Shown here in pieces: positions 2,206-46,056 of a stretch of DNA of 46,056 bases. Both the position numbers and the translations under genes were made by a program. Origin of the DNA: Bacteroidota bacterium (GTDB taxonomy: Bacteria; Bacteroidota; Bacteroidia; UKL13-3); NCBI GenBank assembly GCA_947459075.1, contig CANHBJ010000003.1, positions 1 to 46,056 on the forward strand, written 5' to 3'. Within the stretch, counting starts at the first letter, position 1. Each line of letters starts with the position of its first letter. The notes beneath the pieces are model-generated. The model was not told the origin of the DNA, searched no databases, and was given only the letters and a program-made list of their open reading frames with translations.

Positions 2206-3303
2206 TTATTTAAACAAAGATTTTACTGTGTTTAGCTTTCTTTGAGTTTCTTCCCATTCTTTAATAGGAGAACTTGCCATTGTAATACCTGCTCCTGCAT
2301 ACAATAGTGCATTGTTTCTGAAGAGTTCGGCACATCTTAAATTAACAAATAATTCAAAATTATTACTTGGCCACTGCATACCTATAAAGCCGCTATAAAA
2401 CCTACGTTCCATTTTTTCATTTTCGGCAATAAACAAACTTGCTTCAAACTGAGGCAAACCGCATACTGCAGGAGTTGGATTTAAATCTCCGAGTAATTTA
2501 TGTAGTTTGGTTTTCAATAAATCAGGAGTAATTTTAGCATTGAATACACTGCGTAAGTGGCTTAATTCTCCAGCTGTAATGGTTTCAACATCAGTAAGTG
2601 TATACCTTTTAAAGCCATGTTGTTTTAATATATTACCAATAAAGAATTCAATCATCCCTTGTTCGTCATGTTCTTTATTGGTCCAAGCCGTATTTCCATC
2701 TGCAGGAATTGTTCCAGCTAAAGCAACTGTTTCAATCGTATTGTTTGTAACTGATAATAGTTTTTCTGGGGTAGCTCCAATCCAACAGCCAACATCATTT
2801 ATTTTAAAAAAATAAACTGCAGCATCGGGGTATTTAGTTGCAGCATCAATAAAAAGTTGCGCAGCATCTAATTCTTCTTTAAAATCACTTTGTTCACACC
2901 TAGCGGCAACTACTTTATCAAACTTATCTAATTTTATATTTAAAACAATGTTATCTACATAATCAGTATAGGTAGTTTGATCAGCATAGAAATTTTGATT
3001 CAATTTCTTTTCAAAGAATGAATCAGATGAATTTTGAGTGGCAGGTAATTGGCCGAAAATACAGCTGTTATTCTTGTATACGGCATCACTAATAAAAGTG
3101 TAAGCTTTATCACCTGCACCATATGGCGAGCCAAAAAACAATGGCCTATCTAGAGCTTGTTGATACTCTACTCTTTGCATTTTTGGGGATTCAGAAGCAT
3201 AAAAATAATAAGCGTCATTACTTTTAGGTAATCGCATTGCGGCAAAATTACAGCCTATTTGTTTGGCTTCATTAAACCTTTGGTGGATTAAATCCTCGTT
3301 CAT
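2206..3303 (-). CDS. menF: Isochorismate synthase (MenF/EntC family)
   Basis: It converts chorismate to isochorismate, the committed first step towards menaquinone (or a catecholate siderophore). The chorismate-binding domain fills the C-terminal two thirds. Visible family signatures are FDKVVAAR (with the catalytic-base lysine), GATPEKL, ALAGT, LNPTPAVCGLP, RRFYSGFIG and a final YAGAGI...SSPIKEWEET. The length of 365 fits. Because menD and menB are present elsewhere in the window and no ent genes are seen, MenF is the best reading. Its start overlaps the 3' end of the thioesterase gene by 32 bases, so the two are probably translationally coupled. A chorismate-utilising relative such as PabB is less likely because the isochorismate-synthase C-terminus is intact. 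Confidence 0.9.
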   Translation of the reverse strand: MNEDLIHQRFNEAKQIGCNFAAMRLPKSNDAYYFYASESPKMQRVEYQQALDRPLFFGSPYGAGDKAYTFISDAVYKNNSCIFGQLPATQNSSDSFFEKKLNQNFYADQTTYTDYVDNIVLNIKLDKFDKVVAARCEQSDFKEELDAAQLFIDAATKYPDAAVYFFKINDVGCWIGATPEKLLSVTNNTIETVALAGTIPADGNTAWTNKEHDEQGMIEFFIGNILKQHGFKRYTLTDVETITAGELSHLRSVFNAKITPDLLKTKLHKLLGDLNPTPAVCGLPQFEASLFIAENEKMERRFYSGFIGMQWPSNNFELFVNLRCAELFRNNALLYAGAGITMASSPIKEWEETQRKLNTVKSLFK

Positions 3304-3739
3304 CTTTTTTTATTTCTATGACAGCCATTGTTAGTCGGCTTATGCAATTAAGTTTACCATTTTTATCGGTAATTTTTATTTCCCAAACATGTGTTGTTCT
3401 TCCTAAGTGAATGGGCCTGGCAGTACCAAATACATAACCATTCCCTTCGTGTGCACTTCGAACATGATTTGCATTAATATCTAATCCAACGGCAACAAAT
3501 TTTGTTCTATCTACAGCAAGGTTGGCGGCCAAACTACCTACTGTTTCGGCTAATACGCAATAGGCACCTCCATTTACAATTCTTAATGGCTGAACTGTTC
3601 TATGGTCTATTGGCATGCGGGCAGTTAAATAGTCTTCGCCAAAATCTATAAACTCAATACCAATGTATTCAGACATGGTATTTTCATTTCGTTTATTAAT
3701 CTCATGAAGGGTTACACCTTCCATGTTTACAAAAGCCAT
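3272..3739 (-). CDS. Hotdog-fold acyl-CoA thioesterase, possible DHNA-CoA hydrolase (MenI)
   Basis: This 155-residue hotdog thioesterase belongs to the PaaI/ComA/MenI branch. The central helix RIVNGGAYCVLAETVGSLAA around residues 53-72 corresponds to the family's 'HGG..VLAE..GS' motif, and the catalytic-type Glu is present (E65). The usual His of HGG is Asn here (N56). Strands GLDINANHVRSAHEG and FGTARPIHLGRTTHVWEIKI are standard. It overlaps menF and lies upstream of it. This fits the missing menaquinone step, hydrolysis of 1,4-dihydroxy-2-naphthoyl-CoA, since MenB acts just before that step. The pathway role is inferred from position. Another acyl-CoA substrate is possible. A start at M22 (MSEYIG) is an alternative. 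Confidence 0.75.
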   Translation of the reverse strand: MAFVNMEGVTLHEINKRNENTMSEYIGIEFIDFGEDYLTARMPIDHRTVQPLRIVNGGAYCVLAETVGSLAANLAVDRTKFVAVGLDINANHVRSAHEGNGYVFGTARPIHLGRTTHVWEIKITDKNGKLNCISRLTMAVIEIKKDERGFNPPKV

Positions 3740-4061
3740 TTTATTAATTTTGATACAAATTAAGTCATTAATAAGGTAAGTGCTTAACGATTTTAGTAAA
3801 AAGATAATTATGATCGGATATTTTGGTATAAATCAACCTTCACTACTTTAAAACCATTTAATGGTTCCGTTAAATAGTTCAACTTTAGTGTTTTAATAGG
3901 GGTAGTTATTTTAATGATAACTTCACTTGGGCAATTTTATCTTATGCATAGATAACCAAATGTTTAAGTCGTTCTTTAGTTTATTAGCAATAAATAATTG
4001 TGTTGATATTAGGAATTACTGATGTTAATTTTTGTTTATGTAGTTATGGTTAAAGTATTAT
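3740..4061. other. 322-bp AT-rich intergenic region
   Basis: It lies between the PAS protein's stop and the thioesterase start. It holds a small hairpin (AACCATTTAATGGTT, near 3850) and, close to the thioesterase start on the minus strand, a TTAATTTG box resembling the Bacteroidota -7 element. I looked for the remains of a kinase domain continuing from the PAS gene and saw none. No RNA gene was recognised. Confidence 0.5.
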
Positions 4062-6152
4062 CTACTTCAATTTGATTACCCTAGCTACCACATTTGATCT
4101 AAGGTAAACACCATCTTTAAAAATAAGTTGAACGTTTTGACCCAACCAAATGGTTTTTTTATCCTTTGTTAAAATTGGAAATTCTAGATAAGTAAGTTTT
4201 GTTTTTTCCGTTCTTTGTTTGGAATAGAATGCAATTACTTGTTCTTTATAGTCTTCTCTTATCAATTCTACATATTTTAGCTTGGTAAGTTCTTCCAATG
4301 AGTATCCAGTAAGGTTTAATCCTGCTTGGTTTGAGTATGTGAAATAACCATCAGGATTTGTTTGGTAAAATAAATCTATTGCAGTTTCAATAAAAGTTCT
4401 GAAATTTTCTTCCCTTGCAATAAGTAATTCCTCGTTCATCTTTTTATGGTGGATGTCAATAATTGAGCCTACCATTTTTAATGGTTTTCCTTTTCTGTCT
4501 ATAATTGTTTGACCGCTCGCCAAAAACCATTTATAACTTCCATTTTTTGTCTTTAATCGGTACTCCAACATATATGGCTCATTATCTTCAGAATGTCTTT
4601 TAATGGTATTTTCAAAGCGTTCCATATCGTCTGGATGTAAGTTTTTTAGAAATGCGTCATAAGATGCAACTATTTCCTGATCATCATATCCAAGTAAATC
4701 ATAATACCTCGGGCTCCACCAAACAATACCTTCCTCAGTATTAACCCATTCCCAAACTCCTGCAGCAGTTCTTTTAAATGCAAGGTCGTACCTTATTTCA
4801 CTATCTAATAATTTTATTTCAGCTAGTTTGCGTGCTGTTATATCGGTTACAATTCCTTCAAAAAAAGTAATTTGGCCATCAATATTTTTTTTGATAAATG
4901 TTCGCTCCTCAACCCACACCCAATTATTGTTTTTATTTTTAATTCTGTATTCTGAACTTAATTGATTTGTTTGGTAAGAAGTGGCTATAAAAATTTTATC
5001 TGATACACTACTTTGATCTTCTTCAGAAATTAAGTTGTTGTATGAAAAACCCTCTTTAGTTAACTCAACTGATGTATATCCAAGAATCTGAGAGACATTG
5101 TTTGAAACATAAAGTATACTTCTTTCTTTATTGGGTAACCATTTGAAGAGGACAGAAGGGCTATTGGCAATAATTGTTTCGGCTGTTTGCTGATTTTCTT
5201 CTTGTATTTTCTTTTCAGTGATGTTTTGCGCAACGCCTAAATATCCATTAATTCTTCCGTCTTCATCCTTAATGTTATTAATAGTTAGTAATACGGTTAA
5301 ACGTTGCTTACTTTTAGTAATGTATGTCCATTCTCTTATGTTTGTTAAGCCTATCCTGTTTTTAAAAATAAAGGTTTCAAAACCGGGTTTTAAATTTACG
5401 TTATATTTAATGTTTAATTCTTCAGTTCTTTGTTCAACTTCTTTTTTGTCGTGAAATATTATTGGTGTCGATTTGCCAAGCAAATCTTCAGCTTTATATT
5501 CTAACATTTGTTCGGCACCTTTATTGAATTCAATAATAATCCCTTCCGCATTAACAGCAATTATGGCATAATTTGTACTATCAAGAACTTGACGCTGGAA
5601 AACTCTTGTTTCTAGCAGTTTTGCATTTAGGCTTACTTTTTCCGCAATTTCGGCATGTAATGATTCAGCTGAATTAAGCATAGATTTTACAGAATTATAC
5701 CCATATATACTAAATAAAGTTAATGCGATACCTCTCGAGAAAGTAACGGCCATGGGTTGCTCTTGTATTAAACCAGTTAGCATACCAGTAACTATACTTA
5801 AGCCAATGAGTAATGCTTGATATTTTTTGTTTATTACCAAAAATAAAATTTGAAAAATAATCATCAAATGAAATAACCAATTGGGAGCATCCTGGCCTAT
5901 ACTTTGGGTAAATGCAAGTGATAGTATTATTATTGATAGAATAATTAATATCCCAGATTCTGGGTTTTCAGATTTGATAAATTGGTTGGCTGAAAAGTAA
6001 AATAATGTGCTTACCAAACCACAAAATAGAATAGCCCAATAGTAATTGGTAGCGTATACAATATTTATTACAGAAAATACTAATAAAAAAGAAATTACAA
6101 TATTATTTTGCTTTAGGTATAAAGTAAGCTTTAATCTCTTGTTCTGTGGCAT
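4062..6152 (-). CDS. Membrane protein with four PAS domains and no output domain
   Basis: This 696-residue sensor-like protein starts with about five or six membrane helices (residues ~15-155). A short linker (MLNSAESLHAEIAEKV) leads into four consecutive PAS/PAC units at roughly 185-315, 322-440, 448-570 and 580-696. PAC ends are visible as GYLGVAQNITEKK, FFEGIVTDITARK and MVGSIIDIHHKK; the third unit has the PAS_3 signature WSPRYYDLLGYDDQE. The protein stops within the fourth PAC (NVVARVIKLK), exactly where a histidine kinase, GGDEF or other effector would normally follow. The next 322 bases show no remnant. It is divergent from the histidine phosphatase gene. It may signal through partners, or may be a kinase that lost its output. 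Ligand is unknown. Confidence 0.85.
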   Translation of the reverse strand: MPQNKRLKLTLYLKQNNIVISFLLVFSVINIVYATNYYWAILFCGLVSTLFYFSANQFIKSENPESGILIILSIIILSLAFTQSIGQDAPNWLFHLMIIFQILFLVINKKYQALLIGLSIVTGMLTGLIQEQPMAVTFSRGIALTLFSIYGYNSVKSMLNSAESLHAEIAEKVSLNAKLLETRVFQRQVLDSTNYAIIAVNAEGIIIEFNKGAEQMLEYKAEDLLGKSTPIIFHDKKEVEQRTEELNIKYNVNLKPGFETFIFKNRIGLTNIREWTYITKSKQRLTVLLTINNIKDEDGRINGYLGVAQNITEKKIQEENQQTAETIIANSPSVLFKWLPNKERSILYVSNNVSQILGYTSVELTKEGFSYNNLISEEDQSSVSDKIFIATSYQTNQLSSEYRIKNKNNNWVWVEERTFIKKNIDGQITFFEGIVTDITARKLAEIKLLDSEIRYDLAFKRTAAGVWEWVNTEEGIVWWSPRYYDLLGYDDQEIVASYDAFLKNLHPDDMERFENTIKRHSEDNEPYMLEYRLKTKNGSYKWFLASGQTIIDRKGKPLKMVGSIIDIHHKKMNEELLIAREENFRTFIETAIDLFYQTNPDGYFTYSNQAGLNLTGYSLEELTKLKYVELIREDYKEQVIAFYSKQRTEKTKLTYLEFPILTKDKKTIWLGQNVQLIFKDGVYLRSNVVARVIKLK

Positions 6153-6224
6153 CCTTACGCTTAAATATTTTTTGTGAATTTAAGCATATTTAATTAAATA
6201 AAAATCTGCAACTTTGTTTTACTC

Positions 6225-13808: not shown

Positions 13809-13818
13809 AAATATTTTA

Positions 13819-13844
13819 AAAGGGTCGAATTTAATCGACCCTTT
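13819..13844. terminator. Bidirectional terminator between ABC exporter and porin
   Basis: A perfect 10-bp stem (aaagggtcga/tcgacccttt) with loop ATTTAA is followed by GGTTTTT on the plus strand and by an AT-rich T-run on the minus strand. It ends both the ABC gene and the dab-sulP-porin operon. Confidence 0.8.
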
Positions 13845-13849
13845 GGTTT

Positions 13850-15145
13850 TTAAATTGCAATTTGGAATTGTACAACCATCATACCCTTATTAGATGTTTG
13901 TTTTAAACTTGTTGTGTTTATAATTGGTCTACTTTGGTAGTTTAAACTAATTTTTGAGCGTTGTCCATCAATGAGCCAATTAAAGCCAATATCCCACATA
14001 GCAGTGGTGCTTTTTAATCTATCATACTTGGCCAAAGTAATATCGGCATAAGGTTGAATTCTGTTTACATCTATGTTGTTTTTTTTAGGTAAAAGATAAC
14101 CTATTTGGGCAAACAATGTATTACCGGTTCCGTACATAGCAAAACTATTTCCACCCCCACTTAATGTATTTCCTGTATTAATATTAGCAGGGTTTAACAC
14201 GCCATTATTTCTGATATAATTTTTTCCATAATCGGTATTTGATGCAGCCGCATATAAGGTTAATACACTGCCGTTGTTTTTTATGGGATGTTCAAAAAAC
14301 ACATCAAATCCTATATTAAATAATTTTTGATGAATGATGTTTTTACTCAAAGTATCTGCGTAATGCCACATGGCATCTGGTTGATATTGAAAGCCTGCTC
14401 CAAATGTCAGTATTTTTTTCTTACCTAAATATGTTCCCGACATATATGGGGTAACATTACTTTCTTCATCCCAAAACTGATACATCAAGTAACCACTGGT
14501 TTGAAGCTTAGGTGCATTGTAAGAAAAGTCTGAGTTTACATTTATAGCTTTAACTGAATACGTACTTGCATCAATCATCAAGGGTTTTGACAGCGCCAAT
14601 CGATAATCAAATTTTCTTATTTTACCCTTTACATATATACTTAGTTTACGCAAAAATTGGTCGTTTACATCATTGGTAGATTGTTGGTATAAAGGTGCAT
14701 CATAGCCCAATATGTTTCCAGCCGATGGTGCTGCATAACGCGAAAAACCAGACCAACCAGTTAAGCCTGTTCCTAAATGAAACAATTTATTAGTAAGATG
14801 ATATTCTGTAGCTACATCATGAAAAAACAGACCGGGTTTGCGTGCGGAATTGTATCCATAATTATTAATACCCAATTGGGTATATATAAAAACTTTATCA
14901 GAAATTTTCCCCATCAACTGAAAACGAACCCTACGCAAGCCAACATCAAATGTTTCTTTTTCAGAAATACCATTAATGGTTGTACCAGGATTATTATATG
15001 TATATCTGGTCCAAACTTGCGCTGTAAAATTGGCTTTTAAATAATGAGTTCCTGTCTCATTTAAGCTTAATTTAAGCTCCTTGTTTTGTGCGTAAAGATA
15101 CAAGCCCAATGTGCTTAATGCTGCTGTTAAAAAAAAGGGTTTCAT
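13850..15145 (-). CDS. Outer-membrane porin, last gene of the inorganic-carbon operon
   Basis: It is a 431-residue outer-membrane beta-barrel with a signal peptide (MKPFFLTAALSTLGLYLYAQ). The ORF track's longer start is rejected because its extra residues overlap sulP and would bury the signal peptide. After the leader come alternating-hydrophobicity strands such as FTAQVWTRYTYN, VGLRRVRFQLMGKISDKVFIYTQLGINN and WDIGFNWLIDGQRSKISLNYQSRP, and the chain ends in the amphipathic strand MVVQFQIAI. The layout resembles the phosphate-selective porin O/P group, which carries anions. Its start lies 7 bases after the sulP stop. This implies co-expression with sulP, dabB and dabA and suggests a job letting bicarbonate (or another anion) through the outer membrane. 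The substrate is inferred from context only. Confidence 0.75.
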   Translation of the reverse strand: MKPFFLTAALSTLGLYLYAQNKELKLSLNETGTHYLKANFTAQVWTRYTYNNPGTTINGISEKETFDVGLRRVRFQLMGKISDKVFIYTQLGINNYGYNSARKPGLFFHDVATEYHLTNKLFHLGTGLTGWSGFSRYAAPSAGNILGYDAPLYQQSTNDVNDQFLRKLSIYVKGKIRKFDYRLALSKPLMIDASTYSVKAINVNSDFSYNAPKLQTSGYLMYQFWDEESNVTPYMSGTYLGKKKILTFGAGFQYQPDAMWHYADTLSKNIIHQKLFNIGFDVFFEHPIKNNGSVLTLYAAASNTDYGKNYIRNNGVLNPANINTGNTLSGGGNSFAMYGTGNTLFAQIGYLLPKKNNIDVNRIQPYADITLAKYDRLKSTTAMWDIGFNWLIDGQRSKISLNYQSRPIINTTSLKQTSNKGMMVVQFQIAI

Positions 15146-15152
15146 AATCTGG

Positions 15153-16811
15153 TTAGTTTTTATTTGAAAACTTGCGTGAGGCGAATGGGTGTTTTGATAA
15201 AGGGGTATGATTTTCAAGGCCTAAGATTTCAAATATTCCCCCATCTTCTTCATATCTTTTAGCCAACTCATGCATGTGCTCCATAACGGTATGATCTACT
15301 AGCTTTGCACCAGTAAAATCAACTAAAACTTTTTTGCCATGTGGTAATTTATCTAATTGTTTTTTTAGCCCGATATAATTACTAAAAATGGCAGAGTGCT
15401 CTACATCAATAGTATATAAATTTTTATCTTCACTTACATTTATGGTTAAAAAAGGTTTAAATAAACTTTTTAAGGGCACTCCATTACTAAGGTGAATAAT
15501 CATTTTAACTATTATGCCCACTGCTATTCCAATTAGTAAATCTGTTGCCAATGTTGCTACGATGGTTGATACAAAGATTAAGAGTTGTTCCTTCCCAATT
15601 TTTAGTGTTTTAATAAACTCTTTTGGAGATGCCAAGCGAAAACCTGTAATCATTAGCATGGCTGCTAATGCAGCCAATGGGATTTGGTGAATTACTTGGC
15701 TTAAAAATAATATAAATACCAATAAAAATCCTCCGTGAAAAAAATTAGCCCAACGCGTTTTTGCTCCATTATTTACATTAGCCGAGCTACGCACAACTTC
15801 AGCAATAATTGGTAAGCCTCCTAACAAAGATGATAAAATATTTCCCGATCCCTTAGCAAATAATTCTCGGTTAAAATTTGATTGTCGTTTAAATGGATCT
15901 AGTTTGTCTATAGCGGCTGCAGTTAACAGTGATTCTAAACTTGCCACTAGAGCATACGTAATCATCATTTGAAATCCAAAAGAAGTAAATAAATAATCAA
16001 ATCTCGGCATTATTATTCCGTCCAAAATATTTGATGGAAGTGTAACTAAAAACTTTGGTCCTAATAAATATTCATGGCCATTTAAAAACAGGTATTTATG
16101 TTCATGTTCTAAATCAAAATAATGACCTAGTGGTATAGCAATTAATATTACTAATAAAGGGGCTGGGATCATTTTTACATATTTATTTTTAATTAGTGGT
16201 AATCCAATTAATATAATAAAACTTAATGCAGCAATAATGGCAACATCAGGATTCATGTTAATTATACTATGAGGAATTTCTGTGATTACTTCCAGCATTT
16301 CCTTTCCTTCAGGTTTAACGCCTAATGCGGTGTGGAATTGTTTGGCAAAAATCATAATACCAATAGCAGCAAGCATACCGTGTACAACCGAAGAAGGGAA
16401 AAAATTACTAAGAACGCCTGCTTTAATCAATCCAAATAAAATTTGAATTACACCACATCCAACGCCAACAGCTAGGGTACATTGGTATGCAAACATTTCA
16501 ATTTGATCTGGAGTTAAACCTTCTGGTGCTATTTTTTTAAAGCCTTCAATACTCATTAAAACAATAACGGCTAACCCTGCAGCTGGACCGTTAATAGTTA
16601 AGTGTGATCCGCTAGTTAAAGACAATAATAAACCGCCAACTACACCTGCAATTATGCCGGCCATAGGAGGTACACCACTTGCCATGGCAATACCTAAACA
16701 CAATGGTAATGCGATAAGAGAAATAATAAATCCTGATAGTAGATCAGTTTTCCAATTTTGTTTTAGTCCTGCAAATCCATCAGCAGGTATATTTTTTTTA
16801 AATAAATTCAT
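15153..16811 (-). CDS. SulP-family anion transporter with STAS domain (likely bicarbonate)
   Basis: It is an inner-membrane transporter of the SLC26/SulP family, 552 residues. The N-terminal block WKTDLLSGFIISLIALPLCLGIA and the GSHLTINGPAAGLAVIV motif mark the substrate-binding core of the 7+7 repeat. The C-terminal STAS domain (about residues 440-540) has the typical KVLVDFTGAKLVDHTVMEHM strand-helix. Relatives carry sulfate, bicarbonate (BicA) or dicarboxylates. Placement 14 bases after dabB argues for bicarbonate, probably coupled to sodium or protons. No sulfate-assimilation genes are nearby. The substrate remains an inference from neighbours. Confidence 0.88.
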   Translation of the reverse strand: MNLFKKNIPADGFAGLKQNWKTDLLSGFIISLIALPLCLGIAMASGVPPMAGIIAGVVGGLLLSLTSGSHLTINGPAAGLAVIVLMSIEGFKKIAPEGLTPDQIEMFAYQCTLAVGVGCGVIQILFGLIKAGVLSNFFPSSVVHGMLAAIGIMIFAKQFHTALGVKPEGKEMLEVITEIPHSIINMNPDVAIIAALSFIILIGLPLIKNKYVKMIPAPLLVILIAIPLGHYFDLEHEHKYLFLNGHEYLLGPKFLVTLPSNILDGIIMPRFDYLFTSFGFQMMITYALVASLESLLTAAAIDKLDPFKRQSNFNRELFAKGSGNILSSLLGGLPIIAEVVRSSANVNNGAKTRWANFFHGGFLLVFILFLSQVIHQIPLAALAAMLMITGFRLASPKEFIKTLKIGKEQLLIFVSTIVATLATDLLIGIAVGIIVKMIIHLSNGVPLKSLFKPFLTINVSEDKNLYTIDVEHSAIFSNYIGLKKQLDKLPHGKKVLVDFTGAKLVDHTVMEHMHELAKRYEEDGGIFEILGLENHTPLSKHPFASRKFSNKN

Positions 16812-16825
16812 TTTAGTGTTTTTAA

Positions 16826-18694
16826 TTATGATGAACGATATGGCCTGTTTAAAGGTTCTTTAATAAAGGGGCCTAAGAAAATTCGCGAATACATTCTTAC
16901 AAGTGTAATTCCATCTAAAATTATACTAATCGAAACCAACGATGCCAATAAAAGTTGATTTTGATGGATATGACTAAACAATAGATCTTCACCGATAAAT
17001 GTTGCTGTAATAGGGAATCCTGACAACCCCAAACAGGCCATTAAAAATATAAAGGCTGTTTTAGGATATGGTATGGCATACCCATAAAAATTATTCAGAT
17101 CTATGTTTTTTTCTTTTCTTTTTAAAGTGTGAAGACAAGCATACCCAACTGCTCCCGAAACGATAACACCACTCATGTAAATAATAGCATCTTGCGCGTT
17201 AAATTGTTCGTTATATGAAACTGATAATACTAAGAAAGCATGATTCATTATAATCATAAACCACGCGATGTATACATTATTACGCTCTATGAATGATTTT
17301 AATATCAGTTTTAAGCCTACCGCAGCAAGTATTATCGACATATTGTTTTTTATCGAAGCTGGTATTAATTGTTGATGATATAACACATAAATAGCCGTAA
17401 CAAAAAGTACTGTATATACAATAATGATTTGGTTTATTTTAAGGAAGTCTACTTTTTTACCTAATGTTTTAAGTGTTCCCCATACATATCTATACATATA
17501 CCAATCGAGGTTAAACTCTTTTATACTTAAAACGTAGATAGTATCCTTTATTCTTTTTTGCCAATTAGGAATTGATTTGTGAACTGGTTTTTCAAAATGA
17601 TAAAACTGCTCTTTAATTAAATAACTAACCAACGAAGGAGATACCAAGAGCTGATAGGTACGTAAAAAGGCATTGCCTGCAAAATGCATTAATGCTATTA
17701 TATGCAAACCACATGCAACCTCAATAAAAATAATACCTATTTGTGCTGCTGATGAATATGCAATTTGACTTTTAACAGATGATTGAACCCTTGCTGTTAA
17801 GGTAGTAATTATAGCAGTACTTAATCCCAATAAAGCTATAATAATTCGAACTGAATATTGGTGTTCCCAAAAGGTGTATGTTCTGAAAAGCAAGAAAACT
17901 CCAATATGAACAGATAACGACCCATAGAAGATTGCACTTGATGGTGTAGGTCCTTCCATAGCGCGAGGAAGCCACGATGAGAAAGGAAGTTGAGCTGATT
18001 TAGCTACTGCTGCAATTAAAATAGTTAGCGAAATAAATACACCCACAGCACTATGGCTCTGTAGTTGCTCATGCACCAAGTCATAGTTATTTAATTTAAT
18101 AAATGTAATGTTTTCATGCCATAAATGATGGCTCATCCACATGGCTAATAAAATCCCAATATCGCCAATACGATATATGCTAAATACTTTTATTCCATTT
18201 TTAACTGGCAAATATCTGTGACGATAAAATGCAATTAATAAGAACGAAGAAATACCTAAAATTTCCCATCCTAAAAATAATGTTTCGAAATTACCTGATA
18301 ATACGGTTATACTATATCCTGTAAAGAAAAATAAGATGGTGTTGAAATACCTTTTATATCCGATTTCTCTGTGTAAGTAGTACCTACTGTATATAGTTAC
18401 CATTAATGTTAGTATTGAGCCAACAAGCAAGTATACTAAACTGATTAAATCAAAGTAGAAATCAATAGCAAACACATAATGTTTTGATTGATAAATTACC
18501 AATTCACTAATGTTTAATGCTTGATGCTGGTTTAATAGCCAAAATATACTGAATGCGATAAGTAACAGGGTATTTAACGCAATACCTATGAATGCCGTAT
18601 ACGATATAATTACTTCCTTTTTTTTGGGAATAAATAGGCTAATTATAAATGCAGTAAAAGGAATTAAAATAAATAATTGAATAAATTGTTCCAT
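16826..18694 (-). CDS. dabB: DabB: NuoL/MrpA-like membrane subunit of DAB inorganic-carbon transporter
   Basis: This 622-residue polytopic protein is homologous to the proton-pumping antiporter subunits of complex I. Visible family motifs are LFLGWEILGISSFLLIAFYR (with the conserved Glu), AVAKSAQLPFSSWLPRAMEGPTP (with the channel Lys) and SVKSQIAYSSAAQIG. Full complex I genes are absent. It is paired with dabA, whose stop lies 2 bases before this start, which identifies it as DabB. In the DAB system (also called MpsAB) it is thought to let cations flow in and energise CO2 hydration by DabA, so that bicarbonate accumulates in the cytoplasm. The C-terminal ~70 residues contain two more likely helices and the tail RPYRSS. 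Confidence 0.9.
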   Translation of the reverse strand: MEQFIQLFILIPFTAFIISLFIPKKKEVIISYTAFIGIALNTLLLIAFSIFWLLNQHQALNISELVIYQSKHYVFAIDFYFDLISLVYLLVGSILTLMVTIYSRYYLHREIGYKRYFNTILFFFTGYSITVLSGNFETLFLGWEILGISSFLLIAFYRHRYLPVKNGIKVFSIYRIGDIGILLAMWMSHHLWHENITFIKLNNYDLVHEQLQSHSAVGVFISLTILIAAVAKSAQLPFSSWLPRAMEGPTPSSAIFYGSLSVHIGVFLLFRTYTFWEHQYSVRIIIALLGLSTAIITTLTARVQSSVKSQIAYSSAAQIGIIFIEVACGLHIIALMHFAGNAFLRTYQLLVSPSLVSYLIKEQFYHFEKPVHKSIPNWQKRIKDTIYVLSIKEFNLDWYMYRYVWGTLKTLGKKVDFLKINQIIIVYTVLFVTAIYVLYHQQLIPASIKNNMSIILAAVGLKLILKSFIERNNVYIAWFMIIMNHAFLVLSVSYNEQFNAQDAIIYMSGVIVSGAVGYACLHTLKRKEKNIDLNNFYGYAIPYPKTAFIFLMACLGLSGFPITATFIGEDLLFSHIHQNQLLLASLVSISIILDGITLVRMYSRIFLGPFIKEPLNRPYRSS

Positions 18695-18696
18695 TG

Positions 18697-21204
18697 TTAT
18701 GCTCCTATTAAATGTACTGGAATATTTTGGCCTGATGACAAGATCAACTCGTACATGTTATCTGCTTTGGGTATCTTAATTTCAAATGGCTCGTAGGTAT
18801 CAAATCTTCCTTTATTGTATCTAAAAAATTCGCCATTTTCTGGGTTAACTACAACCAGATTAATCCATTCATTTTCAAACCATGCTGAAGTTTCTGCTGA
18901 TTGATCAAGTGTTTGTTTAACCACATCGGGTAAATGTTCAATTACCATTAATAACCTAATTGGATCGTGCACTTCTATCATTTGCGATGGTAATCCTGGA
19001 CGTATATCTCCATCTATGCCGTTTGCAACACCAACCAAACCCATTACATTATGAGGTAGTTTACTGCCTGCACCTAACTTCTGGTTATCAACTCTAGAAA
19101 AATAATACTCTAAATTAATGCCACCGCATACAGGTGCTGCCGCCTTTAGTATGTTTAACAGCCATTTACCTTCAGGGTCAATTTTGTAATCATAAGAGTT
19201 CATAAAAGCGCGTCTGTCTAAAAATATGCCATGCGTAATCTCCCTTCTACCTATTATGCATAAGCTATTGGTTGCATGGTTAAGTTCTGGTCGTGGTTCA
19301 AATAGAGAAACAGATCGTGTTTTAATTTTTTCATGTACATATTTTGCAGGTTTTTTTGTATTTACAACTTCAAACCTGCGTGATCGTTCTCTCGCGTTCT
19401 CATCTAGTGCGTTGTTAAATGTGTGTTTGTTTTCTCGGTGAAGATAAATGTGTTTTTCACGTAGGTTTTCTTCATCATAAAAAACCATTTCATCTCTTGT
19501 GGTATCATGTAAAGCGGCTATAAACACTGTATTAACTGGAATGTTTATTCCTGCTATTTTAAGTATTTCTCTAACCTCTGTGTTATTTGCCATTTGGCAA
19601 AAAACACGTGCATTAACTGAACCAGGTCTTCCACTGCAAGCACCGCAATCATATGCAGCATAATGAGGGTTATTTACACTGCTAGAACCATGACCAATAA
19701 CATATACAATTGGTGCAAAATCATGAATTAAACCAATGCTTTTTAATACGGCCTCCAATCTATTTGCCATTTCTAATTGTGAAAAACCAACTTGTAAATT
19801 ATGCAGATTGGGTTGATTAGGATGGTATTCAACGGTAAGTTTAGATAGTTTTTCCATATGCCTTAATGAGGTTGCTGTGGCCGGACTCATGGAAGGTTTA
19901 AACAAGTTGACGCACAATCTTAATGCCGACCAAAACCCTAATGTTTGAGAAATAAGCCAACCTGTAACTAAATTATGTGAGTGCTTACCTAAGTGTACAT
20001 CTTTATCTATCGTTCTGCTGCTATCATATTCCTTTATTAAAAATTTAGGAGTAATTGGTACTGGACATGATTTGGTTAAGAATTTACCATGCTCAGGTTG
20101 ATAATAGAATTCAACACCAAAGTGGCCGGGAGTCCCAAAAGTTTCGCATTTATTGTTTAACTGTTCAACATGTCTTCTTATAGAGCATTCCCTATCATCT
20201 ATACAAAATAATGCTTGAAAGCTTTTATCTTTAATTGATATAGATTTTGTTGATGGAATACTATTTTGTTTTACAGCGCAAAGAATGCTATCGTAATATG
20301 TCCACTCGTAGGCTTCTTGCCACATATTAACTAATTCTTGATATTCGCTTTTGTCAATTGCAGCAAAAAGGCTAGTTGGAGGCATTTCAACTTTTTCAGA
20401 TATCGGCTTCCAATTGTTTCCTAAATAAAAGGTGAGTGAGTCAATTTCTAAAAGTAATTCAAATGCTATAAAATCATGAAGTGTTATGTTGCGCTTATCA
20501 AGTAAAGTTTCTGGTTGATCTTCTATTGTAGCCACTAAACCAGACCAACCTGGATGACTAAATTGCTGATCAAAAAGATAATTCTCGAACCAAATTTCAT
20601 CGCCAACCACTATGTGCAGCAATGCAGGTAACTTACATTGCGAGTGTAGTAATAAATGTCTAGCGCGTTCAGTTTTAAAGAAACTAACATGGCTATTACG
20701 CTCAAGCTCACGTAGAGATGAAAGAAATCCTTTGTGCTCAATTGGAAAATTATCTATAGCAATCCCTTGGTCAAGATAGCTGCATAATATCCTAAATAAT
20801 AAAGGCTGAATCTGATTATCTAAATCAATTCTAAAGGAGTCTTTCCAATACGCGCGTAGCTTGCCAATTTTTATTTTGCATGTTGGTTGAATTGATTTGT
20901 TTAACATTTTCTCTTTCCATTCAACTAAACAATTTTCTCCTTTATATTTAATAATAACATTGTTTAGTATCTTATCATTAATTTCATTTTTCCCATATAA
21001 GTCATTGTACTCGATTAAAGTTAGAAAAGTATTAAATCCGAATATTTCAGTTGCCTGATTTAACCCATCAATAAAGTTTAAGTGTTGAAATGCATGTAAA
21101 GTATTATGATGTACAAAGTCTTTTAATGGTGCCTGACTAGGCAAATAATGCTTGAGATTGTGCAGCACATGCTCTTCTGCAAATGCCGATTTTTTTATAT
21201 CCAT
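18697..21204 (-). CDS. dabA: DabA: zinc-dependent subunit of DAB inorganic-carbon transporter (DUF2309)
   Basis: This 835-residue peripheral membrane protein was earlier known as DUF2309/UPF0753. It has a beta-carbonic-anhydrase-like zinc site. The four expected ligands are visible: Cys334 and Asp336 in LFCIDDRECSIRRH, His505 in YVIGHGSSS and Cys520 in YDCGACSGRPG. Their spacing (C-x-D, H to C 15 residues) matches the C351/D353/H524/C539 set of the Halothiobacillus protein. In that system DabA converts CO2 to bicarbonate in a one-way reaction energised through DabB. It is first in a four-gene operon. Upstream lie a direct repeat pair and a short ORF. All ligands intact argues for an active protein. 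Confidence 0.94.
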   Translation of the reverse strand: MDIKKSAFAEEHVLHNLKHYLPSQAPLKDFVHHNTLHAFQHLNFIDGLNQATEIFGFNTFLTLIEYNDLYGKNEINDKILNNVIIKYKGENCLVEWKEKMLNKSIQPTCKIKIGKLRAYWKDSFRIDLDNQIQPLLFRILCSYLDQGIAIDNFPIEHKGFLSSLRELERNSHVSFFKTERARHLLLHSQCKLPALLHIVVGDEIWFENYLFDQQFSHPGWSGLVATIEDQPETLLDKRNITLHDFIAFELLLEIDSLTFYLGNNWKPISEKVEMPPTSLFAAIDKSEYQELVNMWQEAYEWTYYDSILCAVKQNSIPSTKSISIKDKSFQALFCIDDRECSIRRHVEQLNNKCETFGTPGHFGVEFYYQPEHGKFLTKSCPVPITPKFLIKEYDSSRTIDKDVHLGKHSHNLVTGWLISQTLGFWSALRLCVNLFKPSMSPATATSLRHMEKLSKLTVEYHPNQPNLHNLQVGFSQLEMANRLEAVLKSIGLIHDFAPIVYVIGHGSSSVNNPHYAAYDCGACSGRPGSVNARVFCQMANNTEVREILKIAGINIPVNTVFIAALHDTTRDEMVFYDEENLREKHIYLHRENKHTFNNALDENARERSRRFEVVNTKKPAKYVHEKIKTRSVSLFEPRPELNHATNSLCIIGRREITHGIFLDRRAFMNSYDYKIDPEGKWLLNILKAAAPVCGGINLEYYFSRVDNQKLGAGSKLPHNVMGLVGVANGIDGDIRPGLPSQMIEVHDPIRLLMVIEHLPDVVKQTLDQSAETSAWFENEWINLVVVNPENGEFFRYNKGRFDTYEPFEIKIPKADNMYELILSSGQNIPVHLIGA

Positions 21205-21246
21205 GAAAATAGAATAAAATAATAAATAGGAATTGAGACGATGGCT

Positions 21247-21276
21247 GTGGTTCGCTATCGTTTTAGCGTGGTTCGC
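21247..21276. repeat. Direct repeat GTGGTTCGC x2 upstream of dabA
   Basis: Two identical 9-mers, GTGGTTCGC, at 21247-21255 and 21268-21276, are exactly 21 bases apart (two helical turns). They lie 43-72 bases upstream of the dabA start on its 5' side. Between them CGCTA...TAGCG can form a small hairpin. The local GC content is higher than in the flanks. They could be binding sites for a regulator of the carbon operon. Confidence 0.55.
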
Positions 21277-21293
21277 GCCAAAGCATAAAAATC

Positions 21294-21629
21294 CTAAATA
21301 GTTAGCCGACTAACTAGCAAATATTTCGGGAATATACTCGCTTTATTCAGTTGGAAAATGAGAGCCCTAAGACGCGTATTTACTGACGCACAACTCAATG
21401 AGTTAAACCCAAAAAGCAAAATGAATATTAAACCTAAAGAAGATATTTCTATTTTAATATTACCATCTTCTATCTCTATATCTTCAGATAACAAGAGGGG
21501 TATGCTATGATGTGTATTTTTTACAGAATGGTGGTATACTTTGGCAAAAGGAGTTACAACCTTTGATAACAAAGGAATGACTAAAATCAATAGAGAAAAA
21601 GCTAGAATTAAACTTTTGCTAAAATTCAC
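21294..21629 (-). CDS. Short membrane protein upstream of dabA, unknown
   Basis: The product would be 111 residues with a GTG start and no internal methionine. The N-terminus is signal- or anchor-like (SLILAFSLLILVIPLLSKVV). A His-containing stretch (VYHHSVKNTHHS), an acidic patch (EDIEIEDGN) and a second hydrophobic segment (LGLIFILLFGFNSLS) follow, and the tail is basic. I recognise no family. Small exported proteins of this style are common in Bacteroidota. It is on the same strand as dabA, 89 bases upstream, with a 7-bp hairpin at its 3' end. A TACATTTG box lies 4 bases before the GTG. It may be a real leaderless gene or a chance ORF. Confidence 0.45.
   Translation of the reverse strand: MNFSKSLILAFSLLILVIPLLSKVVTPFAKVYHHSVKNTHHSIPLLLSEDIEIEDGNIKIEISSLGLIFILLFGFNSLSCASVNTRLRALIFQLNKASIFPKYLLVSRLTI
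21299..21316. repeat. Perfect hairpin at the 3' end of the short ORF
   Basis: TAGTTAG-CCGA-CTAACTA forms a 7-bp stem with a 4-base loop. On the minus strand it is followed by TTTAGGATTTTTATG, so it could be a weak terminator or attenuator ahead of dabA, or an operator. Confidence 0.5.
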
Positions 21630-21633
21630 TTTT

Positions 21634-21641
21634 CAAATGTA
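21634..21641 (-). promoter_or_regulatory. TACATTTG -7 box, 4 bases before a GTG start
   Basis: Read on the minus strand, TACATTTG matches the Bacteroidota -7 consensus TAnnTTTG exactly. Transcription would begin at or inside the GTG start of the short ORF. A clear TTG -33 box was not seen. Confidence 0.4.
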
Positions 21642-21753
21642 ACCTATTTTAGATAAACATTTCATAATATGCTTAAATTAATCATGTAATTTTTAGCTAA
21701 GATTCAATAGCCACCAACAAATATCTTATCTTCACGGCCTAGTATAAAAATAG

Positions 21754-34943: not shown

Positions 34944-36161
34944 TTATTTACCAGCACAGGTTCCTGCAATAAATCCCGTGGTCCATGCTGCTTGAAAATT
35001 AAAACCACCTGTAATTCCATCTATATCTAATACTTCGCCTGCAAAATGTAATCCTTTTACTTTTTTACTTTCCATGTTTTTGAGTAGTACATCATCTAAT
35101 GAAATACCACCGCAAGTAACAAACTCATCTTTAAAGGTTGTTTTTCCTTTAACTTCATACTTGTCGTATAGAAGAACTTCAACCAAATTATTCACATCTG
35201 CTTTTGATATATCTGCCCAGTTTTTATCTGCATTAATTCCAGTTTTAGCAAACATGTAATCTTGCAAACGTTTAGTAAGTTGGTGATAGGGAAATAAGTT
35301 TCGCAAATGTTTTGTTGGGTTTGCTGCCTTTAGATTCATTAACTCATTTCTAACAGCATCTTCCTTTTTATCATTTAACCAACTTATGCTAACCGTGAAG
35401 TCGTATTGAAGTTCGGCTAAATCGCGTGCAGCATATGATGATAGTTTTAATATTGCCGGGCCACTAAAACCCCAATGAGTAATTAAAATGGGTCCACTAA
35501 ACTCATGTTTAGTTTCAATAATTTTTATTTTAGCTTGGTCTATACTGGTGCCCATTAATTCTGTAATTGAATTGTTGGGTACATTAAAAGTGAATAGGGA
35601 AGGTACGGGGTTTTCTATATTATGACCTAATGTTTTTAACCAATTAAACCCTTCCATTTTGGCTTGCCCACCCGTTGTAACTATAATTTTATCGGCATTT
35701 ACAATAGCATTGTTGGTATTTAATAAAAAGCCACCATCCATTTTGGTTTGAATAGACTTTATTTCTGTATTTAAGACAATGTTAATTTTTAACTTTTCTA
35801 CTTCATTTAGCAAGCAGTTGGCAATTGTTTCGCTATTATCCGTTGTCGGAAACATACGTCCATCAGATTCTGTTTTTAATTTAACACCGCGTTGGTTAAA
35901 CCATGCTACAGTATCTTTGGTGCTAAATTTAGTAAACGCACTTTTAAGTGGCCTTTCGCCTCTAGGATAATTAGTTGTGAGTCTGTTATTTTCGAAACAG
36001 GCATGCGTTACATTACATCTTCCCCCGCCCGAAACAAGCACTTTTGTAAGCAACTTTCCGGTTTTCTCGTAAATAGTAACTTCGTTTGTTTTATTTGCTG
36101 TAGCCGCATGTATGGCTGCAAAAAAGCCTGCTGCTCCTCCTCCTATTACTGCTATTTTCAC
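34944..36161 (-). CDS. FAD-dependent oxidoreductase, HI0933/BaiN-like
   Basis: It is a 405-residue flavoprotein with an N-terminal Rossmann motif (AVIGGGAAGFFAAIHAA) for FAD. The HI0933-family blocks KVLVSGGGRCNVTHACFE and, at the end, GEVLDIDGITGGFNFQAAWTTGFIAGTCAG are clear. Relatives include BaiN, which reduces bile-acid intermediates, but most members have no proven substrate. The start must be GTG (MKIAVIGGG), because the conserved motif lies directly behind it. A TACATTTG box is 5 bases upstream, so the mRNA is probably leaderless. The gene stands alone. Confidence 0.9.
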   Translation of the reverse strand: MKIAVIGGGAAGFFAAIHAATANKTNEVTIYEKTGKLLTKVLVSGGGRCNVTHACFENNRLTTNYPRGERPLKSAFTKFSTKDTVAWFNQRGVKLKTESDGRMFPTTDNSETIANCLLNEVEKLKINIVLNTEIKSIQTKMDGGFLLNTNNAIVNADKIIVTTGGQAKMEGFNWLKTLGHNIENPVPSLFTFNVPNNSITELMGTSIDQAKIKIIETKHEFSGPILITHWGFSGPAILKLSSYAARDLAELQYDFTVSISWLNDKKEDAVRNELMNLKAANPTKHLRNLFPYHQLTKRLQDYMFAKTGINADKNWADISKADVNNLVEVLLYDKYEVKGKTTFKDEFVTCGGISLDDVLLKNMESKKVKGLHFAGEVLDIDGITGGFNFQAAWTTGFIAGTCAGK

Positions 36162-44488: not shown

Positions 44489-45397
44489 TTAGAAATGTTT
44501 ACGCAATCCAATACTCATTCCCAACATATAAGGATGTTGCTTAACTGAATAATTATTACTGGTCATGCTGTTTAAACTGTATCGTAAATAAGGTGCAGCA
44601 GTAAGCGTAATGGCTTGATTAATTTGGTACGCTAATCCTAAGTGTAGATGAGCAAAAATGCTGTTTTTTATAAAGGGGAACGATTCTTTATTCTTTACTA
44701 CCAATACGCCTACATTATTTTGGCCTACTAAAGCAGCATCAATTGTACTTATAAATGCATAACTCAATCCAATTTTAGTTTCAATTCCAAATCGTTTGTG
44801 CGGTGTAAACCTATAAGTAATTAATAAAGGAATTTCGTTCCAACTGTATTTAATACGTGTATTGTTTATTCCATTGGCTGTAACCGAATCGTTTGTTGCT
44901 AATTGGCTATTTGCATCATATTTCGGAGGTTGTGTTGCCTGTGTTGTTCCATATGTCATACCCATACTAAAATGAGTAAATTGCACACCACTAGATATCA
45001 ATAGCTTGTTCCATTTATAATCTAATAAAAATGCACCACTCCAATCTATTTTAGCAGATTCTATTTGATTACGAAGTGCTACGTGTTCTGTTAGGTCAGA
45101 TTTATTTGTATTCAATTGCATTTGACTGAAATGAGCACCAATCATTACACTTAAAGATAGTCTTGAAGGAAGATTAGCACCATCTTTAATCGATGGTTTT
45201 ATTTGGCTTGTTACACTATCATGTATCGCTGGAATAATGTTTCGTGCTATTATAGAAGTATCAGAAGGTTCTTCAGTTTTATTGGGTTGATGGTAGGTGC
45301 TAATTTCTTGTTTGTTTGTTTGCTCTTTATTATCGATTAAGTTTGGCTGTATTTTGTTCGTATTTATTCCTTGTTCAACTGGGCCTAGCACAATCAA
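44489..45397 (-). CDS. Outer-membrane beta-barrel protein, 5' cut at the junction
   Basis: The visible part has ~300 residues. There is a hydrophilic linker (DNKEQTNKQEISTYHQPNKTEEPSDTS) and then a barrel of strands such as RLSLSVMIGAHFSQMQLN, WSGAFLLDYKWNKLLISSGVQFTHFSMGMTYG, RFGIETKIGLSYAFIS, FAHLHLGLAYQINQAITLTAAPYLRYSLN, ending in LGMSIGLRKHF. The usual PorT-like layout has a signal peptide or an anti-sigma-like N-terminus plus a transmembrane helix before such a linker. None is seen here, because the gene runs into the phage segment. The ORF track's start is a TTG at 45397, an artefact of the join. The true 5' end is missing. Confidence 0.6.
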   Translation of the reverse strand: MIVLGPVEQGINTNKIQPNLIDNKEQTNKQEISTYHQPNKTEEPSDTSIIARNIIPAIHDSVTSQIKPSIKDGANLPSRLSLSVMIGAHFSQMQLNTNKSDLTEHVALRNQIESAKIDWSGAFLLDYKWNKLLISSGVQFTHFSMGMTYGTTQATQPPKYDANSQLATNDSVTANGINNTRIKYSWNEIPLLITYRFTPHKRFGIETKIGLSYAFISTIDAALVGQNNVGVLVVKNKESFPFIKNSIFAHLHLGLAYQINQAITLTAAPYLRYSLNSMTSNNYSVKQHPYMLGMSIGLRKHF

Positions 45398-46056
45398 AGC
45401 ATTGTTAGCAAGTAATTATTTAGACCCAGATGCTCCTGATCCAGCATTATATCCACAAGGTATGCGCCTATGGAACCTACGCCGTAGCGGATTTAACGTC
45501 AAGAAGTATGTAGTTGATCATATTAACATCTATGCTAATGACGGTAAAAATGCTCGTTATAACGACGAAGTAATGGTTACTATCGGCGATGAATATGTTG
45601 CAGATCGTTGGATCACAGTAAGCCCTAACCAAGAAACTGGTGCAGGTAGCTTTGGTCGTCACGCACAACGTAGATTTGTTGTATCGGCATTTAAGGCAGT
45701 TATTGACACAAATCAAGCAATTCGCGATACTGATACACTAGTATTCAACTTAATTGCTACACCTGGATACCCTGAAGCTATTCAGAACATGATTGCATTT
45801 AATGCAGATCGTGGACAAACTGCTTTTGTATTAGGTGATACACCGTTCCGTTTAGCACCTACTGGCACTGAATTATCAAACTGGGGCAATAACAATGCAC
45901 TAGCATTTGATAACGGTGATGATGGTGCAGTAAGTAGCGATGAATATATGGCAATGTTCTACCCAAGTGGTTTTACAAACGACAACACTGGAAATAGTAT
46001 TGTTGTTCCGGCAAGTCACATGATGATGCGCACAATTGCCAACAGTGATGCTAAGA
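45387..46056 (+). CDS. T4-like phage tail sheath protein, fragment (both ends cut)
   Basis: The open frame continues to the window's end and gives about 223 residues with no start or stop. The sequence STIKALLASNYLDPDAPDPALYPQGMRLWNLRRSGFNVKKY, the block GAGSFGRHAQRRFVVSAFKAVIDTNQAIRDTD, the FNLIATPGYPEAIQNMIAFNADRGQTAFVLGDTPFRL stretch and the last VVPASHMMMRTIANSDAK are typical of the contractile tail sheath (gp18 family) of T4-like myoviruses of aquatic bacteria. In these phages the sheath is made as long repeated subunits that shorten to drive DNA injection. No other phage gene is in the window. The piece is joined to an outer-membrane gene of the host on the opposite strand. Confidence 0.75.

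Follow-up and report, generated by a model that had tools for sequence, protein, structure and literature searches.

A very probable chimera of a Dma-like host gene and a slice of a large-phage tail-sheath gene at a contig end in a draft Bacteroidota genome

At the end of contig C3 of a draft Bacteroidota genome, an outer-membrane beta-barrel gene on the minus strand meets, on the plus strand, a piece of a gene for a phage tail sheath; the question is whether this join exists in the bacterium or arose during sequencing and assembly. The window, that is the whole stretch of DNA analysed, is the entire contig of 46,056 nucleotides (CANHBJ010000003.1, assembly GCA_947459075.1). The genome comprises 2.55 Mb in 230 contigs and is estimated to be 87% complete and 0.76% contaminated, a level at which the phage slice of C3 goes unflagged by ordinary contamination checks. 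By inference from named relatives in the genus, which are Bacteroidota genomes obtained from metagenomes, the genome is likely of freshwater origin. An earlier note, made from the sequence alone, had proposed a chimeric assembly of host and phage reads. The following features were recognized at the contig end:

44489-45382, minus strand: 3' part, encoding the ~297 C-terminal residues, of a host gene for a sigma-regulator/outer-membrane beta-barrel protein, Dma-like by architecture, with 92% identity to residues 236-532 of the 532-residue protein of the relative G004
44880-45382, no strand: 503-bp stretch with which contig C14 of this genome also opens, at 97.4% identity
45376-45382, no strand: junction CAACTG(G), with six shared bases, or seven if the phage of the sample had G at 45382, from position-by-position comparison and alignment
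45376-46056, plus strand: internal piece (about codons 712-938 of 1,117) of a contractile-tail sheath gene from a large phage, running off the contig end, from the phrog_10581 match and the identity to viral contig L002

The phage side was identified by direct sequence matches. Positions 45384-46055 on the plus strand matched the tail-sheath family phrog_10581 with E=2.9e-52 over profile positions 543-738 of 915. The best 80 contigs of IMG/VR were 69-98% identical to the sheath fragment. The nearest of these by protein was L002, an environmental viral contig with 98% amino-acid identity, and at the DNA level window positions 45376-46056 were 97.2% identical to positions 4993-5673 of L002 over 681 bp. 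The plus-strand tail-sheath segment reported in the earlier note from about 45,375 onward was thereby borne out, with identity beginning exactly at 45376. In L002 the sheath gene is intact (2859-6212, 1,117 codons; phrog_10581 over its full length, E=3.3e-208) and is accompanied by genes for tail-tube, head-tail connector, head-closure and virion proteins. The window holds only ~224 of the ~1,117 residues of this large-myovirus sheath, and both ends of the protein are absent. Comparison with phage sheath proteins, as suggested earlier, gave the large myoviruses PA5oct, Atu_ph07, Phosso and CBB-type phages as named relatives at about 35-42% identity, and these nearest named relatives are large phages that we take to be lytic. 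No close database phage was found for the sheath fragment at the DNA level.

That the phage gene naturally ends at the breakpoint was ruled out, because its frame extends further upstream in related viral contigs. Among 66 related viral loci whose frame is not cut by a contig end, L003 has 286 open codons ahead of the fragment and the other 65 have 582 or more. The codon differences between the fragment and L002 were 11 silent and four replacement changes. As the differences are mostly silent, with no stop codon and no frameshift, the fragment reads as current phage sequence and not as a decaying insert.

The description of the sheath as T4-like was only partly upheld. The fragment does belong to a myovirus sheath, distantly related to that of T4, but the resemblance to gp18 of the T4 group lies in the C-terminal part of the protein, almost wholly outside the window. 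The full-length L002 protein matched T4-group gp18 structures at residues 918-1105, whereas the window fragment alone gave no sequence match in the PDB at E values up to 0.1. T4 gp18 was consequently ruled out as the direct source, since its match begins at residue 918, essentially beyond the fragment.

On the host side, the open reading frame 44489-45397 on the minus strand is about 235 residues short at the N-terminus compared with its homologue of 532 residues. This agrees with the earlier observation that the beta-barrel gene loses its 5' end, and the missing N-terminus, which the note had proposed to seek in relatives, was located in G004, a relative of the same genus with the whole gene. 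The ~235 lost codons encode the cytosolic domain, the transmembrane helix and much of the linker, which leaves C3 with the barrel and a portion of the linker. The lack of a signal peptide or anchor had been listed as a further peculiarity of the host fragment. An anchor is indeed absent, but this is no extra anomaly: the full-length gene carries a transmembrane anchor and not a signal peptide, and the anchor lies within the lost part.

The nature of the complete gene was examined in ten full-length homologues. All show, as judged by sequence, a short N-terminal part followed by a single transmembrane helix near residue 80 (start at residues 76-85), a polar linker of 164-244 residues and a C-terminal beta-barrel, with Pfam OMP_b-brl_2 matched in six of the ten (best E=8e-8). 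The gene directly follows an ECF sigma gene, whose end overlaps the start of the regulator. Dual membrane-spanning anti-sigma factors (Dma) of Bacteroidota have been published in Bacteroides thetaiotaomicron and consist of an N-terminal domain, a transmembrane helix, a long disordered tether and a C-terminal beta-barrel, encoded next to an ECF21 sigma factor, which they bind and inhibit (PMC13088901). The homologues share with Dma the short N-terminal part, the single transmembrane helix, the long linker, the C-terminal barrel and the ECF sigma gene directly upstream. An ECF-type sigma gene was found in this position in the relatives whose upstream region was examined, and the sigma/regulator pair is conserved across the family of the window genome (other loci: L102 1-1749 and L103 4319-6455). 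By its architecture, the full-length host gene is a Dma-like sigma-regulator/beta-barrel protein gene with putative sigma binding. The window copy differs from Dma in that the first two domains are missing. An AlphaFold model of the host protein, built from three input sequences, had a pLDDT of 27; it was uninformative and was not used.

The remainder of the host gene was found elsewhere in the same assembly. Contig C14 starts within the beta-barrel gene and overlaps the host end of C3 by 503 bp, with 13 of the 503 positions differing. Past the overlap come the remainder of the gene (403 residues open), then the ECF sigma gene, groEL and others. C3 is collinear with contig C4 of G004 up to position 35,211 of the latter, which corresponds to window position 45,382, and C14 is collinear with positions 34,709-61,174 (26 kb) of the same contig. 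Since C14 overlaps the host end of C3 and then runs collinear with G004, it is the true continuation of C3, or that of a sister strain.

The change of source could be placed to within a few bases. Identity to C14 and G004 ends exactly at 45382 and identity to the phage contigs L002 and L003 begins exactly at 45376, and past the switch the identities to C14 and L002 each drop to 23% over 100 bases. The G at 45,382 agrees with the host and disagrees with L002 and L003; a phage variant with G at this position, which would give the seven-base overlap, was not found in IMG/VR. For random host-phage joins, a shared stretch of at least six bases was calculated to occur with p about 0.002 and one of at least seven with p about 0.0006. 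The overlap of 6-7 bp thus speaks for a physical template switch (an amplification chimera) or for genuine illegitimate recombination rather than for blunt ligation.

Searches were made for the join and for more of the phage. The earlier statement that no other phage genes accompany the fragment was confirmed: the sheath fragment is the only match in the genome to ~10.7 kb of phage locus around the sheath gene, and no other piece of that locus was detected there. All of the other 63 genomes searched in the order lacked the sheath, and the other eight genomes of the genus lacked the join. The exact join sequence did not occur in the GTDB-220 contig collection or in IMG/VR, although the window's own records may be missing from these. 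The same join in an independent genome, named at the outset as an observation that would speak against a chimera, was therefore looked for in genus genomes, GTDB-220 contigs and IMG/VR and was not seen.

The contig end has two sources, an exact breakpoint and a host continuation on C14. It is very probably a chimera, in which the host gene was joined at 45,376-45,382 to a slice of the sheath gene of a co-occurring large phage. The chimeric assembly first proposed is supported by the continuation on C14, the collinearity with G004, the isolated internal slice of the sheath gene and a join found nowhere else. As to how the join arose, we infer that a chimeric molecule produced by template switching during PCR or amplification, or chimeric reads, would have formed first, this being the most likely route, and that the assembler may then have followed the chimera where strain variants broke the host path. 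Two ordinary paths are unlikely to have been joined by a word common to both, since assemblers usually work with words much longer than 7 bp. The case resembles chimeric contigs at assembly breaks in metagenome-assembled genomes in the abrupt switch of source in the middle of a gene on both sides, in a true continuation that sits on a different contig of the bin and in relatives without the join, and nothing was found to be different in kind.

The alternative that best survives is a real recombinant, in which a phage fragment was inserted by microhomology-mediated illegitimate recombination and truncated the beta-barrel gene in some strain of the population. Illegitimate recombination leaves shared stretches such as the one at the junction, which is longer than random joins give. 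C14, differing from C3 in the overlap, is perhaps from a sister strain, so that it does not prove the gene intact in the strain of C3, and no exact phage variant carrying G at the last junction base was found. However, the sigma and barrel genes form a pair conserved across the family, none of the relatives in the genus has the join, the phage piece shows no decay and nothing else from this phage region is present in the genome. Furthermore, the contig ends 674 bases past the join with no return to host sequence seen. A real recombinant was accordingly judged improbable. A genuine and recent microhomology-mediated capture of large-phage DNA in the Dma-like gene of one strain, recording a contact between phage and host, is very improbable; if true, it would mean that the capture broke a sigma-regulator gene in one Bacteroidota strain.

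Integration of a prophage or phage-plasmid, with the contig ending inside the element, would likewise give a switch from host to phage DNA across a few shared bases, in the manner of an attachment site. Here, however, the join lies in the middle of a sheath gene that is uninterrupted at this point in related viral contigs, and integration would destroy the phage's own tail. The window has no tRNA gene, the genome lacks the remainder of the ~10.7 kb phage locus, and the nearest named relatives are presumably lytic. Lysogenic insertion was ruled out by the lack of a tRNA gene, the absence of further phage locus and the mid-gene join, and an integrated element was considered hardly credible. Equally hard to credit is DNA of mixed origin that was packaged in phage particles and sequenced along with the sample, whether through a transduction-like process or through recombination of degraded host DNA with phage DNA during its replication. 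Such molecules could form where a lytic phage and its host occur together, but nothing specific points to them, no evidence here links host and phage, and a rare molecule would hardly end a 45-kb host contig unless an assembly error had also occurred.

As a very probable assembly or library chimera, ordinary in kind, the contig end should not be treated as a real feature of the genome. It follows from it neither that the bacterium is the host of the phage nor that the bacterium carries a lone sheath gene. In the annotation, cutting C3 before 45,376 and placing C14 as its neighbour would re-establish the gene order around the join and reunite the sigma gene with its regulator.

Contig ends also fall in the beta-barrel gene in two other assemblies of the genus, namely the start of C107 and the end of C1 in G005 and the end of C60 in G001. 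An assembly-break hotspot in the gene was considered and is not claimed: the three breaks compare with ~1 expected, by a rough hand estimate from the contig counts of the genomes, and the excess over chance is small. Strain variation has perhaps broken the assemblies at this gene.

Elsewhere in the window, two stretches are absent from the otherwise collinear contig of G004. The first, at 3812-6190, contains a gene for a multi-PAS-domain protein (4062-6152, minus strand). The second, at 13817-21709, encodes the inorganic-carbon transporter DabA together with a subunit resembling those of proton antiporters, a SulP permease and an unknown protein of 455 aa, and looks like a carbon-uptake island that was gained or lost.
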